A DNA stretch of 64,000 nucleotides from Gluconobacter cadivus (GTDB taxonomy: Bacteria > Pseudomonadota > Alphaproteobacteria > Acetobacterales > Acetobacteraceae). Positions 33,288 through 40,166 of this stretch are shown piece after piece. Each line of letters starts with the position of its first letter. The stretch's first letter is position 1. The position numbers and the translations under genes are program-made. The stretch lies in NCBI RefSeq assembly GCF_015244745.1, contig NZ_JABCQI010000004.1:1-64000 (forward strand), read 5' to 3'. The notes beneath the pieces are model-generated. The model did not search any database. It had not been told where the DNA came from and saw nothing but the letters and a program-made list of their open reading frames with translations.

Positions 33288-33917
33288 ATGAATGTCATGT
33301 CTTCCCTTCCGTCCCAGATTTACGCCGTTGTTGACCAGCCCCGCTGGGTGGAACGGCTTGGCGGAGCCGGACTGCGATTCATCGAACTCTATCTCCGGGA
33401 TCTATCCGAAGAGGACGTTCGGGCGCAGGCTTTGCTGGCTCAGGAACTTGCGGCACGTTTCAATGTGTCTCTCGCGTTGAACCGCTACTGGCAGACTGCC
33501 ATCGAACTGGGTTATGAGTGGCTGCATCTTGGACCGGAAGATCTGGAAACTGCTGACCTGGAGGCGATCCGGACCTCAGGTATCAGATTTGGTATCTCGA
33601 CCCATACCCGTCAGGAACTGGAAACGGCTCTGGCCTGCAAGCCGGATTACATTTCCTTTGGTCCTGTCTGGTCTACGGAGCTTCGGGGCGTGAAGCTGAC
33701 GGGTAGGGGCCTGAAGCAACTGGCGGAATGGCGGGAGCTGTGCGGAGATGTGCCGCTGGTGGCGATCGGAGGCCTCACGGTGCCACGGCTGACGGAGTGC
33801 CTTGAAGCCGGAGCGGATACGGTGGCTGTGATGAGCGATTTCATCGGCCATTCAGACCCGGAAGGGCAGGTCCGGCACTGGCTTGACGCCGTCTCCGAAG
33901 AATCTACCTCAACCTGA
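33288..33917 (+). CDS. ThiE/TenI-like thiamine phosphate synthase family protein
   Basis: A 209-residue TIM-barrel protein resembling thiamine-phosphate synthase: YAVVDQP at the N-terminus, WLHLGPEDL, GISTHTRQEL, DYISFGPVWST and the phosphate loop VAIGGLTVPRL...GADTVAVMSDF. The ND dipeptide usually found before the HLGQ strand, whose Asp helps bind magnesium, reads NR here, so a TenI-like or altered role is possible. No other thiamine gene is nearby. A second in-frame ATG at 33297 is an equally good start. Confidence 0.75.
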   Translation: MNVMSSLPSQIYAVVDQPRWVERLGGAGLRFIELYLRDLSEEDVRAQALLAQELAARFNVSLALNRYWQTAIELGYEWLHLGPEDLETADLEAIRTSGIRFGISTHTRQELETALACKPDYISFGPVWSTELRGVKLTGRGLKQLAEWRELCGDVPLVAIGGLTVPRLTECLEAGADTVAVMSDFIGHSDPEGQVRHWLDAVSEESTST

Positions 33918-33966: not shown

Positions 33967-36540
33967 ATGATGGTGACAGGACTGGCAGCCGTACTCCTAG
34001 CGCTTGCGTTCCTGCTCACGCTTGTCAGCATCATTCAGCCTCTCGCGAAGCGTCTTGAAATTTCAGAAGCTGTTCTGCTGGCTCTGACGGGGATCGGGCT
34101 GGGGCTGGTTGCGTCTCTGATCGTTCGATCCTCTGCGACCGATCTTCTGGACGGCGCGGCGGAAGCGTTGATCTATTTTCCGGTCAACAGTGAAGCGTTC
34201 CTGCTGATTTTCCTGCCTATTCTGGTTTTTCAGGGGGCGATGGCCATTGATGTGCGCCGTCTGGCCCATGAAACGGCGACAGTCCTTCTTCTGGCGGTCG
34301 TGGCGGTCATTGTGTCCACGGCTACGATCGGCTTTGCGCTTTATCCTTTTGCCAAACAGAGCCTTGTTGTCTGCCTGCTTCTGGGCTCCATTGTCGCGAC
34401 GACCGACCCTTCCGCCGTGGCCGGAATTTTCCGCGAAATCGGTGCTGCGTCTCGCCTGACACGCCTTGTCGAAGGAGAGGCACTCCTGAACGATGCTGCG
34501 GCCATTTCGATCTTCTCGATCCTTCTGGCAGCCGTTACGTCCCATCACCAGATCCATCCGACCGAAGCTTTGATGGACTTCATGACGGCCTTTATTGGGG
34601 CCATCGTAGTGGGGGTCTGTCTGGCGCGCCTGACATTACTGCTGATTGCAGGACTTGGCGGGTCGGCGGCTTCGGAAGTCACGCTGACACTGGCGCTTCC
34701 TTATGCCGTCTATATCCTGTGCGATGAAATGCTCGGCTTTTCGGGGGTTGTGGCAACGGCTGCCGCAGGCTTGACAGTGTCCGCTTACGGGCCGTCCACC
34801 TTCCGTCCGCAGGTCTGGCGTTTTCTGAACGAGATGTGGGAACAGCTCGTTTTCTGGGCCGGTTCGCTCGTCTTCCTTCTGGCGGCCATGCTGGTTCCGC
34901 GACTGCTGATTGGCATGACGAAGTGGGATTTCGTGCTGATCCTGATTGCAAGCGTGGCTGGTCTGATCGCGCGCTCGGCCGTGATTTTTGGTATGTTGCC
35001 CCTACTGGCAATTACGAAGCTGTCGCCACCTGTTCCAAACCCTTTCAAGGCAACGATGGCCTGGGGTGGCATTCGCGGCGCCATCACGCTTGCCCTTGCT
35101 CTCGCCGTGACCGAGAACCAGAGCGTTTCAAGCCCTGTGGCCCATTTTGTCGGTATCATCGCCACGGGCTTCGTTCTCATCACGCTTCTGATCAACGGTA
35201 CGACGCTGCGGGCCTTGGTTTTGTTCTTCAAACTGGATCAGCTTTCCCCTATCGATCAGGCCATCCGCCAGCAGATCGTGGGAATTGGTCTGGGTGAGGT
35301 CGCAGAACGGACGCGGGAACTGTCCGAAGAGCTTGGCTTCAGCGAGCAGACGCGCGCCGGCGTTATCAGCCGTCTCGAACGTCGTGCCGAGAAGGAGAGG
35401 GCGGCCAATAATTTTGAGTCCGCCCTGAGCGACCGTAACCGCGTTAACATTGCCCTGATTACCATCGCCAATCAGGAACGCTCCCTGCTGCTGGACCTGT
35501 TCCGGATTCAGGGACTATCTCGCCGTGTGATGGAAACATTGCTGAGAACGGCGGAATCCATGGCGGATGGCGCCAGACTAGAAGGGCGTTATGGCTATGT
35601 GCGCGCGCTTAAACGGCGTCTTCAACCTTCACTCCGCTTTCGGATCGCGCAGGAACTTCATAGTCGTCTGCATATTGATGAGCCCCTGACGAACTGCATG
35701 ATGGAGCGGTTCGAGATGCTCATCATTGCGCATCTCGTCTCGCTTTCGCTTCAGCGCTTCGTTCGCCAGCGTATGGAACCCACACTCGGTCCGCGTATCA
35801 CGGAAATCGTGGCTGAAGTGCTCGGCCGTCAGCGCAAACTGCTGGATGATGCGCTTGAAACACTTCGCCTGCATTATTCCGGCTATTCCGAAGCTCTGGA
35901 AAGCCGCATCCTGCGGCAAATCGCTCTGCGTCTCGAAGATGAAGAATATGATGCTCTTGAAGCCGACAGCCTGATTTCCGAAGAGCTTCACCGCGAACTG
36001 CATCGTGAGATCGAACGTCAGCGGGCACGGCTTGATGCGCCGCTACGTTTTAATCTGAAAAGCGGCATCGAACAGCGCCTCCGGGCTTTTCCGGCTTTCA
36101 ATGGCGTTCCTGACAGTGTGCTGCAAAAGCTGTCCTCCAAGGTTTCGATGCACTTCGTCTCACCCGGAGAAGTGCTGTTCAAACGGGGCCAGCGCGTTCG
36201 TGTCGTTTACGCTCAGGTCGCGGGGCTGGCTGAAGTCAATCTGGCTGAGCAGGAGATCCTGTTCGGTAGTGGAGATCTGATCGGGGCTGCCTCCGTCATC
36301 CGCAACGACGTCATGCCCGGAACTGTCCGCTCCCTTCAGTTCAGCCATCTACTGGCCATTCCGCGACCGGTTTTCGAAAAGCTGATCCGGGATTACCCCA
36401 TCGTTCAGCGCCTTATTATCCAGCGCAGCAAGAAAAGGGCAGACGGACTTCTGATGCCTGTCACAGTCCGCACGCTGGACGGAGACGCGATCTCAACGGC
36501 CTCCGCCGCAGAGATGCGCCATCTGGTTTCGCCGCCTTAA
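33967..36540 (+). CDS. CPA1-family Na+/H+ antiporter with C-terminal cNMP-binding-like domain
   Basis: Inner-membrane cation/proton antiporter of 857 residues. The first ~430 residues hold about 12 hydrophobic helices with the CPA1 signatures TTDPSAVAGIFREIGA, EGEALLNDAAAI and WGGIRGAITLALAL. A long charged helical region follows, then a domain at about 690-810 like cyclic-nucleotide-binding domains (VSPGEVLFKRG). The phosphate-binding cassette is not typical (FGSGDLIGAASVIRND), so nucleotide binding is doubtful. The ATG at 33967 is preferred over an upstream frame that overlaps the ThiE-like gene. The stop shares TTAA with the convergent POT gene. Confidence 0.88.
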   Translation: MMVTGLAAVLLALAFLLTLVSIIQPLAKRLEISEAVLLALTGIGLGLVASLIVRSSATDLLDGAAEALIYFPVNSEAFLLIFLPILVFQGAMAIDVRRLAHETATVLLLAVVAVIVSTATIGFALYPFAKQSLVVCLLLGSIVATTDPSAVAGIFREIGAASRLTRLVEGEALLNDAAAISIFSILLAAVTSHHQIHPTEALMDFMTAFIGAIVVGVCLARLTLLLIAGLGGSAASEVTLTLALPYAVYILCDEMLGFSGVVATAAAGLTVSAYGPSTFRPQVWRFLNEMWEQLVFWAGSLVFLLAAMLVPRLLIGMTKWDFVLILIASVAGLIARSAVIFGMLPLLAITKLSPPVPNPFKATMAWGGIRGAITLALALAVTENQSVSSPVAHFVGIIATGFVLITLLINGTTLRALVLFFKLDQLSPIDQAIRQQIVGIGLGEVAERTRELSEELGFSEQTRAGVISRLERRAEKERAANNFESALSDRNRVNIALITIANQERSLLLDLFRIQGLSRRVMETLLRTAESMADGARLEGRYGYVRALKRRLQPSLRFRIAQELHSRLHIDEPLTNCMMERFEMLIIAHLVSLSLQRFVRQRMEPTLGPRITEIVAEVLGRQRKLLDDALETLRLHYSGYSEALESRILRQIALRLEDEEYDALEADSLISEELHRELHREIERQRARLDAPLRFNLKSGIEQRLRAFPAFNGVPDSVLQKLSSKVSMHFVSPGEVLFKRGQRVRVVYAQVAGLAEVNLAEQEILFGSGDLIGAASVIRNDVMPGTVRSLQFSHLLAIPRPVFEKLIRDYPIVQRLIIQRSKKRADGLLMPVTVRTLDGDAISTASAAEMRHLVSPP

Positions 36541-37964
36541 AGAGCCGGGGGTAGGGTCTCTTTTTCGGGAGCCAGCAGATCGCGGAACCGGAGCGCACAG
36601 AACCCAAGAATGACCGCCGCCAGCAGAGCGGCTCCAGAGTGTAGCAGCCAGAACGAAACGTCGGAAATACGACCCAGAAGTGTTGCGAGCTTTCCAATCA
36701 GAAGATTGGAGAGAAACAGATGCAGCGAAAAGCAGGCCACGAGGATGGTGTTGACGCTCACGGGAGCAGCCCGGGAAAAAAGGGCCATTCCGATCGCATA
36801 ACTCATCGAAAAGCCGATATCATTAACGATGTGAAAGGCCAGCCCCCAAAGCAGGCTGACTTGATGTAGGCCCGGGCTGATCCATGAGCCCAAAGCCAGC
36901 AGCAGGGGACCGAATGCCCCGATAAAAGTGCCGAGTGCGACTTTCGTAATCTCGGAAAGATCCTGCCGCCGCCGGGAATAGGCTTTCCAGAACCACAGGA
37001 CAGCCACAGCACATAGGGTACTGATGAAGCCGTCCAAGGAAATCAAATCGCTGACCGGCATTTCGTGCCCCAAAAGACGAAGCTGGAAATGCTCGCGTCC
37101 CCAGAGCAGATAACCGTCAAAAATTTCGGAGTTCGGGACAGCTCCAACTGCCATAACCGGCACAAGCGCCAGAAGCAGCCATACCGTCTTTTTTTCCTGT
37201 GACGTCAGGGCAGGGCGTGTGCGTTTTGAAATGTTCGCATCATGAGGCTTCAGATGGACGGTAAGGTCAGAGGCAGGAAGCCAGCGGCGCCCGAAAAGAT
37301 AGACGACGAGCCCGATCAGCATACCAACGCCCGCGGTCAAAAAACCCCAGTGCCATTCGATCTGCGCCAGGCTTGCACATAATATCGGCGACACGATGAC
37401 GGCAACCTGAAGTCCCATCATATAGATCTGATAGGCGTCCGAACGTCTCCGGTCATCCAAGGCATAAAGCGCGCCAACCTGCGCCCTCAATCCTCCGGCC
37501 ATGCCAAGACCTGCGAGCAGAAAACCCAGTGCCAGCACGAAACTCCAGTCGAATGACAGCAGGAAATGGCCCACCGTCATCAGAACCGCTCCAAAGAGAA
37601 TTGTGCGTGTCTGACCAAGGACACGGTCCGCCAGAAAACCGCCGATGAGGGGAGTGGCATAGATCAAGGCCAGAAAAAGCCCTGTAATGGCTCCAGCCAG
37701 AGCTCTCGGCCCGACTGGCGCATATAAAGCCGAGACAAACGCCTCAAGCGGCGCCAGACCAAATACATGTCCGGAATGGTCAGGCTGAAGCAGATGGTCC
37801 GTGAGATAAAGCGCAAGGATGGCCTGCATGCCATAAAGCGAAAATCCGACCCAGCCCTCCGTCAGTGTTAACACCCACAACCCGATGGGATGCCCCCAGA
37901 GTTCACGTTGTCTTGAGGGAGCAAACGGTTCGATGACGGGGGAAGCAGGAAGGATCTCGGTCAT
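36537..37964 (-). CDS. POT/PTR-family (MFS) peptide transporter-like protein
   Basis: A 475-residue membrane protein with about 12-14 helices. The first-helix region reads EGWVGFSLYGMQAILALYL, aligning with the POT motif ExxERFxYYGM. However, the second Glu and the Arg are replaced by Val39 and Gly40, leaving only Glu36. The GGFLADRVLGQTRTILFGA loop matches the family motif after helix 2. Known POT proteins couple di/tripeptide uptake to protons through ExxER, so transport mode and substrate here are open. It is convergent with the antiporter, and its 5' side faces the repeat-bearing stretch. Confidence 0.82.
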   Translation of the reverse strand: MTEILPASPVIEPFAPSRQRELWGHPIGLWVLTLTEGWVGFSLYGMQAILALYLTDHLLQPDHSGHVFGLAPLEAFVSALYAPVGPRALAGAITGLFLALIYATPLIGGFLADRVLGQTRTILFGAVLMTVGHFLLSFDWSFVLALGFLLAGLGMAGGLRAQVGALYALDDRRRSDAYQIYMMGLQVAVIVSPILCASLAQIEWHWGFLTAGVGMLIGLVVYLFGRRWLPASDLTVHLKPHDANISKRTRPALTSQEKKTVWLLLALVPVMAVGAVPNSEIFDGYLLWGREHFQLRLLGHEMPVSDLISLDGFISTLCAVAVLWFWKAYSRRRQDLSEITKVALGTFIGAFGPLLLALGSWISPGLHQVSLLWGLAFHIVNDIGFSMSYAIGMALFSRAAPVSVNTILVACFSLHLFLSNLLIGKLATLLGRISDVSFWLLHSGAALLAAVILGFCALRFRDLLAPEKETLPPAL

Positions 37965-38032
37965 GCAGCCTCAGTGATGCAGGGGAGGAAGATCCTGCGT
38001 AACGGCAGAAACCCACGGAGGTAAAGAGGAGA

Positions 38033-38154
38033 GATGCCTATGGCAAAATGCCATCATCTAGCCGTAGTGGCATTTTGCCATAAGATCGCCAGCCCAAAGT
38101 TTTCTAGTGGCAAAGTGCCACAAATCTTATTCATGGCACTTTGCCATAGGCATC
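38033..38154. repeat. Nested inverted-repeat element, 122 bp with 22-base ends
   Basis: The ends 38033-38054 and 38133-38154 are inverted copies of GATGCCTATGGCAAA(A/G)TGCCAT, matching at 21 of 22 positions. Inside lie two more copies, so four 13-mers TGGCA-N3-TGCCA sit at 38041-38053, 38068-38080, 38108-38120 and 38134-38146. The first pair and the second pair are each in inverted orientation, 26-27 bases apart. Each 13-mer is nearly self-palindromic. The element is flanked by AGA on both sides, which could be a short target duplication or chance. Confidence 0.9.
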
Positions 38155-38230
38155 AGATCAGTCACCAAGAACGCGATCTGCATCTCAAAAATCCGCTTCA
38201 AAGGCACCGAAAATCTGGGGCAATGGTGTT

Positions 38231-38250
38231 CCGTGGCATTTTGCCATAGG
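38231..38250. repeat. Fifth copy of the TGGCA-N3-TGCCA repeat
   Basis: TGGCATTTTGCCA at 38234-38246 with following TAGG. With the flank it matches, in inverted orientation, 17 bases of the leftmost copy (CCTATGGCAAAATGCCA). It stands about 90 bases beyond the main element. Confidence 0.9.
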
Positions 38251-38531
38251 GATAAATTTGAAATCCGATGGGTTCAATGCGCTGGGCACAAGTTGAAAGA
38301 CTTGAAATCCAACATGAATCAGAGGCGGGATCTGCAATACATATATGTCGTATAAGATATATTATGCCAACTTATATATCTGGGAACTCTAAATTTCTGA
38401 CTTTTTTGTGAGAACACATCCTATTGTTGCGAAGAATGTCTCAATTCGCGCTAGGAAAAGCGGTGTAGTCCATTTCTGCCGGTGAGAGCACATACTCGAT
38501 CACCGGTATATCCGCGGGAGCGGCTGTTTAT

Positions 38532-40166
38532 ATGTCATCTATGTCCCTGTGCCGCCTGAGTCTTCTGGGAAGCACATTCTGCGTTGCTGTTCTCTCCGCC
38601 CTCCCGACCATCGCACGGGCTGATGATTATACGGAACTGCTCGACATCCTTCGCGCCAAGGGCAGCCTGAGCCGTTCGGAATACAACGTACTGCTGTCAC
38701 ATCACCAGCATCACGCGCACCCCTCGCTGCAACGTGACGACGACGGAGCATCCCCGGCACCCGCACGCCATCGCAACCGTTACATGCGCTATGGACCCCA
38801 GAACGAAGGCAGCAGCCTTGATACTCCACCTGACGTGACGACAATTGCCGCAGTCTCCGCAGCGCGCCGTGCCGCCATGGAAGCCTCGGCCAGCGCACAG
38901 GACGCGCGCAACTCCCTGATGGAAGCACGCAGGACGTATAATCCGGACAGTATCGTGCGCGTGAAGCCCTATGTCGCGGGCAAAGGCGTTACGATCCAAG
39001 CGGGCCAGATCGACATCAACATTTCCGGCTTCGTCAACGCGTACTATACCTATAACAGTCCGAGCGGCGGCCGCCCTGTCGCGGGCGGCGTTTCCACCGG
39101 TAGTAGCGGGTTCGACTCATCTTCCGTCCGTAACGGCCTTCTGCCGGGTGGTCTGATCCTGAAGCTGAACACGGTACAGGAAGGCATCAAGCTGGGCGCC
39201 GTGTTCGGCATGTATCCCGGCATCAACAACAACGACCCCAGCACTTTCAACGCCAATTCCGGTGGCAGCCCGGTGGGCCTTGGAACCGCCGGCCTCGATT
39301 TCCGTCAGGTTTTCATGACTGCGGGAACCGACGAACTCGGTACGGTCAAGCTGGGTCGTGATATTGCGCTGTTTGCGTCCGATGCCATCCTGAACGACGC
39401 CACGCTTCTCAGCGTTGGCAGCACCGGCAGCAACGCCAACCCGGCCAATACGTCTCTCGGCCGCATTGGCGTCGGTTACGTCTATACTGACTGGCTTCCG
39501 CAGATCACCTATATCTCACCGAAATGGAAAGGCTTTCAGGCTTCCGTCGGTGTGATGACACCGCTTGACGAATATAACTTCGCAGGCGGCGGACTTTCTG
39601 CGACGACGACCCAGCACAGCTCGCCCATGCTTCAGGGCAAAGTTACCTATGACGGCAATATTGCCGGCTTCACAACACGCTTCTGGAGCAGCTTCCTCGT
39701 TCAGCATCAGCAGAACCTGACCAGTGCGACCCTTGGCAGCAACAGCCGCAAGGGCACGACGGTTGAGGCTGGCGACGTGGGCGTCAAACTTTCGCGCGGT
39801 CCATTTGAGGGCGTGGCGTATTATTATTATGGCAGTGGCCTTGGCACGACGGGCCTGTTCTTCGACGGTGTCTCGGCGCAGGGGCGCAAGCGTGATTCGG
39901 AAGGCTACTACGTTCAGGCGGCCTATAAGATCCTGCCGAAGCTCAAGGTTGTCGGCAGCTATGGCGTCAGCAATCTCTATCAGGCCCCCGGTGAAGACAA
40001 TCCGTCCATGGTCCGCCGCAACCAGTCGGAAGTCGGAGCCGTCTATTACAACCTGACGGACTGGTTCACGCTTGTGGGCGAATATGCCCATACGGAATCG
40101 GACGCCCACGGCATCGCACATGAGAGCGACCATACGATGTCGGCCGGTGCGATGATGACGTTCTGA
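38532..40166 (+). CDS. Outer membrane porin
   Basis: A 544-residue beta-barrel protein. A signal peptide (cleavage near ARA-DD) is followed by a short helical, His-rich N-terminal region (about 30-70) and an Ala-rich helical stretch (about 100-125) that could form a periplasmic coiled coil or trimerisation segment. From about residue 140 alternating polar/hydrophobic strands begin (GQIDINISGFVNAYYTYN) and the chain ends in Phe (MMTF), as barrel-assembly substrates do. It resembles the Gram-negative porin_4 type of diffusion channel. It is preceded by a long AT-rich leader, suggesting strong or regulated transcription. Confidence 0.87.
   Translation: MSSMSLCRLSLLGSTFCVAVLSALPTIARADDYTELLDILRAKGSLSRSEYNVLLSHHQHHAHPSLQRDDDGASPAPARHRNRYMRYGPQNEGSSLDTPPDVTTIAAVSAARRAAMEASASAQDARNSLMEARRTYNPDSIVRVKPYVAGKGVTIQAGQIDINISGFVNAYYTYNSPSGGRPVAGGVSTGSSGFDSSSVRNGLLPGGLILKLNTVQEGIKLGAVFGMYPGINNNDPSTFNANSGGSPVGLGTAGLDFRQVFMTAGTDELGTVKLGRDIALFASDAILNDATLLSVGSTGSNANPANTSLGRIGVGYVYTDWLPQITYISPKWKGFQASVGVMTPLDEYNFAGGGLSATTTQHSSPMLQGKVTYDGNIAGFTTRFWSSFLVQHQQNLTSATLGSNSRKGTTVEAGDVGVKLSRGPFEGVAYYYYGSGLGTTGLFFDGVSAQGRKRDSEGYYVQAAYKILPKLKVVGSYGVSNLYQAPGEDNPSMVRRNQSEVGAVYYNLTDWFTLVGEYAHTESDAHGIAHESDHTMSAGAMMTF

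Follow-up and report, generated by a model that had tools for sequence, protein, structure and literature searches.

A palindrome array at a POT transporter gene of Gluconobacter as a putative operator array of a phage-type XRE repressor

In a 64,000-nucleotide stretch of Gluconobacter cadivus DNA (the window), a cluster of short palindromes lies between the divergent genes for a POT/PTR2 transporter and a presumed porin. What is this cluster for, and what might bind it? A first-pass annotation had offered three readings: a miniature transposable element, a REP/BIME-like repeat, or an operator array for a dimeric regulator. The third reading stood and the two repeat readings fell. We consider it very likely that the five palindromes serve as operators for a P22-C2/434-like XRE repressor, the putative binder, which would act on them in trans.

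The palindrome array and its neighbouring genes

Exact TGGCA-N3-TGCCA matches were found at the five starts in Table 1, with start-to-start spacings of 27, 40, 26 and 100, and four of them lie in the 122-bp inverted-repeat element that the annotation had described. The two inverted pairs spaced 26-27 bases apart were reproduced, and so was the outer 22-nt inverted repeat with one mismatch (38033-38054 and 38133-38154). AGA was also present on both sides, as claimed (38030-38032 and 38155-38157); in the 15 rows viewed of 21 aligned loci, both borders recur only in the nearest species.

We then compared the number of sites with chance. Allowing up to one mismatch, the window contains 8 motif matches against 3.0 expected, a number reached in 0 of 100 shuffles. 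The whole 3.29-Mb genome contains 9 exact sites, 5 of them in the array, and a reversed control pattern gave 5. Single 13-mers are therefore near chance genome-wide and only the clustering of sites is remarkable. TGGC-N5-GCCA cores averaged 3.9 per interval in 26 orthologous intervals and 0.006 in mononucleotide shuffles of them.

Isolated copies were also seen. A sixth exact copy in the window, TGGCAGACTGCCA at 33489-33501, lies inside the upstream gene region and is probably due to chance or coding constraint; the matching place in G333 has one too (L142:1918). Isolated copies of the relaxed 13-mer outside the two loci described below (for example C7:146233, C4:33489 and one inside a metG-like gene of Neokomagataea) are taken for chance.

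An Rfam scan of the window returned two tRNAs only, so no known RNA family lies at the array. The promoter scan of the window interval found no sigma-70-like promoter.

Table 1 Features of the array, its neighbouring genes and the putative regulator locus. Positions are those of the window unless a contig is given.
Feature	Position	Strand	Basis
POT/PTR2 oligopeptide:H+ symporter gene	36537..37964	-	PF00854, TIGR00924, solved symporters, synteny
Nested inverted repeat, 122 bp	38033..38154	.	Putative operators 1-4; as an element only in this lineage
Putative operator 1, TGGCAAAATGCCA	38041..38053	.	Exact match; upstream of POT, start codon 77 bp away
Putative operator 2, TGGCATTTTGCCA	38068..38080	.	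Exact match; centre is the exact reverse complement of that of operator 1
Putative operator 3, TGGCAAAGTGCCA	38108..38120	.	Exact match
Putative operator 4, TGGCACTTTGCCA	38134..38146	.	Exact match; centre is the exact reverse complement of that of operator 3
Putative operator 5, TGGCATTTTGCCA	38234..38246	.	Exact match
Nearly invariant element, TGTCGTATAAGATATATTATGCCAACT	38346..38372	+	Alignment of 21 porin loci; between array and porin start
Porin gene of the first-pass annotation	38532..40166	+	Secreted 544-aa protein
HTH_3/XRE gene, 130 aa	C9:28155-28547 (same genome)		HTH_3 is the only Pfam domain
Phage head and contractile-tail cluster, about 20 kb (about 19.7 kb)	C9:28571-48290 (L010:8571-18000, L074:1-10290)	divergent from xre	PHROGs

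The POT protein matched Pfam PF00854 with 63 bits (cut-off 27) and TIGR00924 with 124.7 bits, slightly below the cut-off of 130.2, and it is similar to solved peptide symporters. The 544-aa product on the other side had no match in Pfam or NCBIfam, so "porin" is an untested label given by resemblance. The element between the array and the porin start occurs as a single copy in the genome and is probably the porin's own control region. A conserved TTGTTGCGAAGAATGTC was observed further along from this element.

Conservation of the array and distribution of the motif

Arrays of at least three TGGC-N5-GCCA sites were found in 25 of 26 Gluconobacter and Neokomagataea genomes, always at the POT gene. 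A POT orthologue (53-100% identity) adjoins the array in all 25 array genomes. The porin orthologue was found in 20 of the 25 genus genomes searched, and in G333, added afterwards; all 21 porin loci have at least three such sites upstream. It was missing in 5 of 25. Four of these porin-less genomes (G054, G131, G180 and G307) retain three or more sites, placed between the POT gene and the conserved gene that follows, and in the fifth, G250, the array was not found by strict-motif or doublet search. The retention of the array in the four porin-less genomes suggests that the sites belong mainly to the transporter. We therefore propose the POT gene as the main target of the array. The porin gene is a possible second target, and its case is weaker because some lineages with the array have lost the porin, which has its own nearly invariant element. 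In G303 (contig C2:496760-498312; L038, L041), the porin was found in two matches covering residues 1-438 and 463-544, perhaps because of a frameshift.

The orthologous intervals contain 101 TGGC-N5-GCCA sites in 26 intervals, with an A/T-rich centre and a flanking A/T preference. There are 3-5 exact cores per interval, and their number and spacing differ between species. In the alignment of 21 loci, of which 15 were viewed row by row, the palindromes persist while the spacer sequence around them diverges. Outside these genera, Brytella (G079) and Tanticharoenia (G048), names assigned from matching contig positions, have arrays of 5 and 6 sites, respectively, ahead of POT orthologues with about 50% identity.

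We also searched the genus genomes with the strict motif WTGGCAWWWTGCCAW. This gave 50 matches in 26 of 26 genomes, with 3 for the reversed control. By place, 37 matches were at the POT interval, 13 at the locus of an XRE-family regulator gene, and none elsewhere. The consensus, ATGGC-A-WWW-T-GCCAT, consists of the 4-base half-sites TGGC and GCCA around five A/T-rich bases.

This distribution leaves little room for the insertion of a mobile repeat, whether miniature transposable element or REP/BIME-type, between the POT and porin genes. The inverted-repeat architecture in the window genome is what such an element would predict. However, the annotation's proposed search for copies of the 22-base arm found none outside the array at up to three mismatches in the genome (the arm occurs three times inside it), and the search for empty sites found none among the 21 aligned loci. 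The site numbers in orthologous intervals are graded, and the strict motif occurs at two loci only in 26 genomes. A miniature transposable element was rejected on the missing arm copies and empty sites, and a REP/BIME repeat on the lack of dispersed copies and the two-locus distribution; we regard any mobile-repeat origin as extremely improbable.

The motif was found to co-occur with the XRE gene. Doublets, defined as two TGGC-N5-GCCA within 4-34 bp, were present in 17 of 17 XRE-positive vs 0 of 13 XRE-negative genomes (Fisher 8e-9, with related genomes that are not independent samples), and 48 of 49 doublets were at the POT interval or the XRE locus, with 1 for the reversed control. XRE-negative here means not among the 11 of 150 family genomes matching at E 1e-25, in an output that names part of the unmatched genomes; the membership of the 13 genomes in the sample of 150 was deduced from their recurrence in other family-genome searches. 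In 5 of 7 XRE-positive genomes, 4-6 sites lie upstream of the POT orthologue, as against 0 of 22 XRE-negative genomes with any site there. For two of these 22 (G066 and G145), the POT match starts inside the protein and the promoter falls outside the coverage. Without these two, the comparison is 0 of 20 XRE-negative vs 5 of 7 XRE-positive genomes (Fisher 2.6e-4, the genomes again being related and not independent). In four further XRE-positive genomes (G008, G037, G085 and G149), the POT proteins are all distant ones, and no array accompanies them.

A different dimeric regulator, for example a nutrient-responsive one, could bind the array, with the motif merely resembling XRE operators. G022 and G025 fit this, since both keep the XRE gene and a POT orthologue yet have no array, and XRE binding is itself deduced. 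Together with G250, which is also XRE-positive, these two genomes count against the XRE reading. Against it stand the identical consensus at both places with no third place and the co-occurrence of doublets with the XRE gene. Another regulator is therefore distinctly unlikely.

The XRE gene and the adjoining phage structural cluster

The annotation had correctly stated that no regulator gene is adjacent to the array, because the gene of the likely regulator is found on a separate contig, C9, beside its own operator copies. This gene shares 99% identity with its G. kondonii counterpart, and in the window genome its flanks contain two exact sites and one one-mismatch site. Operators at about -73 and -29 from the xre start codon were found in 26 of 26 genus genomes with one mismatch allowed. 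Among named loci, of which 37 were found and 36 taken (L078-L113, leaving out L114 from Salibacterium at 33% identity), 34 have two exact TGGC-N5-GCCA upstream of xre, across eight genera, and 33 have two exact operators downstream. Gluconacetobacter diazotrophicus has an XRE gene of 62% identity that carries an operator pair at -72/-30, with no terminase or capsid within 10 kb. The motif thus goes along with the XRE gene rather than with phage genes. A further operator doublet lies about 1.2 kb downstream of the XRE gene in Gluconacetobacter diazotrophicus PA1 5 (L042:5362-7045).

The XRE profile matched chains of P22 C2 (7e-5) and the 434 repressor (0.005), and the protein matched the NCBIfam RstR and DicA repressor models below cut-off. 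No sensor domain was recognised in it. With a mean pLDDT of 56.7, its structure model is too poor to count as evidence on its own.

Downstream of xre, the arrangement operator-TTGAC-operator-TTAA is kept in 33 of 36 loci (L010:7922-7980 in the window genome), forming a promoter-like block that reads towards the 3' end of xre. In the window genome, the near operator fills the 17-nt spacer of TTGACC-N17-TAATTT. An operator in a promoter spacer is expected for repression, and this is the best argument for repression over activation. The -10 is weak, and the consensus promoter scan did not list TTGACC-N17-TAATTT. Repression by XRE is what we infer, not what we observed. A 38-aa frame behind this promoter is present in the majority of closely related Gluconobacter loci and absent in other genera, so its coding status is doubtful.

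On its other side, xre is adjoined by a phage structural cluster. A PHROGs scan of all 23 cluster ORFs of at least 90 aa identified terminase subunits, portal, scaffold, major capsid, tail sheath, baseplate and fibre, along with many unknown ORFs and one weak endolysin-like match. Among these ORFs there was no replication gene and no convincing integrase; the one integration-category match was a transposase profile, weak at E 0.003, that hit the small terminase. The large terminase adjoins xre in 35 of 36 named loci from seven genera (Gluconobacter, Neokomagataea, Acidomonas, Tanticharoenia, Brytella, Swaminathania and Asaia); in relatives, the comparison covered the head half of the cluster.

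Across five phage genes, median dN/dS was 0.064-0.139; xre had 0.066 and dnaB 0.040. Mid-gene stops were limited to one portal (L091) and one xre (Asaia prunellae, L113), with the remaining stops near gene ends; stops in dnaB fall in an N-terminal over-extension of the query. Capsid relatives (E 1e-60) were found in 68 of 150 family genomes, as a single copy in 64 of these. All 11 XRE-positive genomes have one, with at least 79% identity, and many capsid rows outside the XRE group have one or two in-frame stops at unchecked positions. The closest named phages by capsid are Komagataeibacter phiKX1 and phiKX2 (66% identity), which are described as induced temperate phages (PMC8566455). From its genes, the cluster looks domesticated under purifying selection and conserved across clades.

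How might one repressor serve both loci? XRE dimers would bind TGGC-N5-GCCA, whose half-site geometry is that of a P22-C2/434-class dimer. They would occupy the operator pairs on both sides of their own gene, across the divergent promoter region of repressor and phage cluster and, downstream, on the second promoter beyond xre, and would repress xre's own promoter and the phage cluster. At the transporter, several dimers would bind, probably cooperatively, in the stretch 77-283 bp ahead of the POT start codon. The bound array would hold the POT transporter down, perhaps the porin too, until the repressor is released. Release would then free the transporter together with the phage cluster, so that peptide scavenging could be switched on together with cell lysis by the cluster. 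If this coupling is true, control of a phage-derived structure is wired together with nutrient import.

The array could also be a titration or looping platform, a decoy or nucleoid site that tunes free XRE for the phage cluster and hardly affects POT. Its 3-6 sites are unusually many compared with the two at xre, and some lie far upstream of POT. However, the array has remained next to POT in different genera and where the porin was lost, which a free-standing decoy would not need, and we find this explanation unlikely. The array is best filed as a putative operator array of a phage-type repressor recruited to a host transporter gene. A candidate regulator, its operator code and a two-locus regulon were obtained here from sequence alone.

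The proposed repressor resembles the P22 C2, phage 434 cI, DicA and RstR class in being a small HTH_3 protein whose gene is divergent from a phage operon, with palindromic operators between and beside the genes. It differs from this class in having no close sequence relative and TGGC-N5-GCCA half-sites, in guarding a cluster without a recognised integrase or replication gene, and in its 3-6 additional sites beside a host transporter gene at another chromosomal place. In another alphaproteobacterium, Caulobacter crescentus, RogA and the Rtr/Cdx XRE factors repress the gene-transfer-agent (GTA) activator genes gafYZ (PMC9632790, PMC10688885). As proposed here, phage-like repressors stand over a domesticated phage cluster. 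RogA is described as LexA-like, 213 aa long, with GGAA-N4-TTCC sites in the gafYZ promoter (PMC9632790, PMC10688885), whereas the protein here has 130 aa, the HTH only, TGGC-N5-GCCA sites and a position beside the structural cluster itself; this comparison of sites is with RogA. RogA-type GTA control was considered and rejected, as Pfam found only HTH_3 with no LexA-like S24-like C-terminal domain and the site is different.

Like RcGTA-type agents, the cluster is a set of head-tail genes under purifying selection in whole clades. Unlike them, it includes a tail-sheath gene, and its capsid relationship is to phiKX1 and phiKX2. The count given by GTA-Hunter is 0 RcGTA-like clusters in 62 Acetobacterales genomes (PMC6821227), so a putative domesticated phage cluster in these industrial acetic acid bacteria stands in an order where the RcGTA-based survey found none. 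The cluster may be a GTA-like system unrelated to RcGTA, known here from genes alone, and is a candidate new GTA-like lineage. A broader and rather doubtful idea is that acetic acid bacteria possess a gene transfer agent of their own, not of the RcGTA kind, whose repressor in the Gluconobacter-Asaia group also keeps a peptide importer locked, so that release would give DNA-carrying particles and lysis in some cells while readying cells for the released peptides. Titles and abstract starts from literature searches on Gluconobacter, Acetobacter or Acetobacteraceae prophage, XRE or GTA mentioned nothing on this regulator or array; those retrieved with the string TGGCANNNTGCCA, in this spelling only, were of eukaryotic papers.

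Inverted pairing of neighbouring sites

The nested inverted pairing described in the first-pass annotation was found to be real and recurrent. Among neighbours at most 45 bp apart, 23 of 50 pairs have five-base centres that are exact reverse complements of each other, and 0 of 50 have centres that are direct copies. With partners shuffled, 7.7 reverse-complement pairs are expected, and 0 of 5000 shuffles reach 23. Beyond 45 bp this matching disappears, with 5 of 42 reverse-complement and 9 direct. Of the 23 exact pairs, 15 are of the common AAAAT/ATTTT type and come from related species, and the other eight are other types in separate lineages, such as AAAGT/ACTTT, GCTTT/AAAGC, TTAAT/ATTAA and AAAGA/TCTTT. 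At the xre locus, the centres of the doublets are not visibly so matched by eye. A plain operator array would not need such pairing. The centres pair beyond what operators need, so the array may have a second role, and the pattern suggests either homogenisation of inverted repeats or a selected hairpin.

In the hairpin case, the inverted pairs would be selected as an RNA structure, attenuator, terminator or DNA cruciform and not only as protein sites. The array strand folds at -64.1 kcal/mol (z -10.5), one terminator-like site was found at 38107-38121, and the excess of reverse-complementary close pairs includes lineage-specific types. Moreover, 14 of 26 segments were more stable than all 60 of their spacer shuffles, a null that is too easy because the narrow mask left the flanks and one-mismatch sites in the spacers. 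On the other side, the more distant neighbours do not match, the number and spacing of sites vary freely among species, most exact pairs are of the one common type in related species, and template-switch repair would homogenise the arms without selection for a hairpin. We consider a selected hairpin rather unlikely.

Template-switch homogenisation explains both the pairing and the 22-nt arms without a new function. This process has been described for imperfect inverted repeats (for example PMC8604942, PMC7202029). As in those quasipalindromes, neighbouring inverted arms here become exact reverse complements; in contrast to them, the arms here are repeated putative protein-binding sites, and the process is a candidate. 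The array thereby offers a natural test case for the homogenisation of inverted repeats of binding sites.
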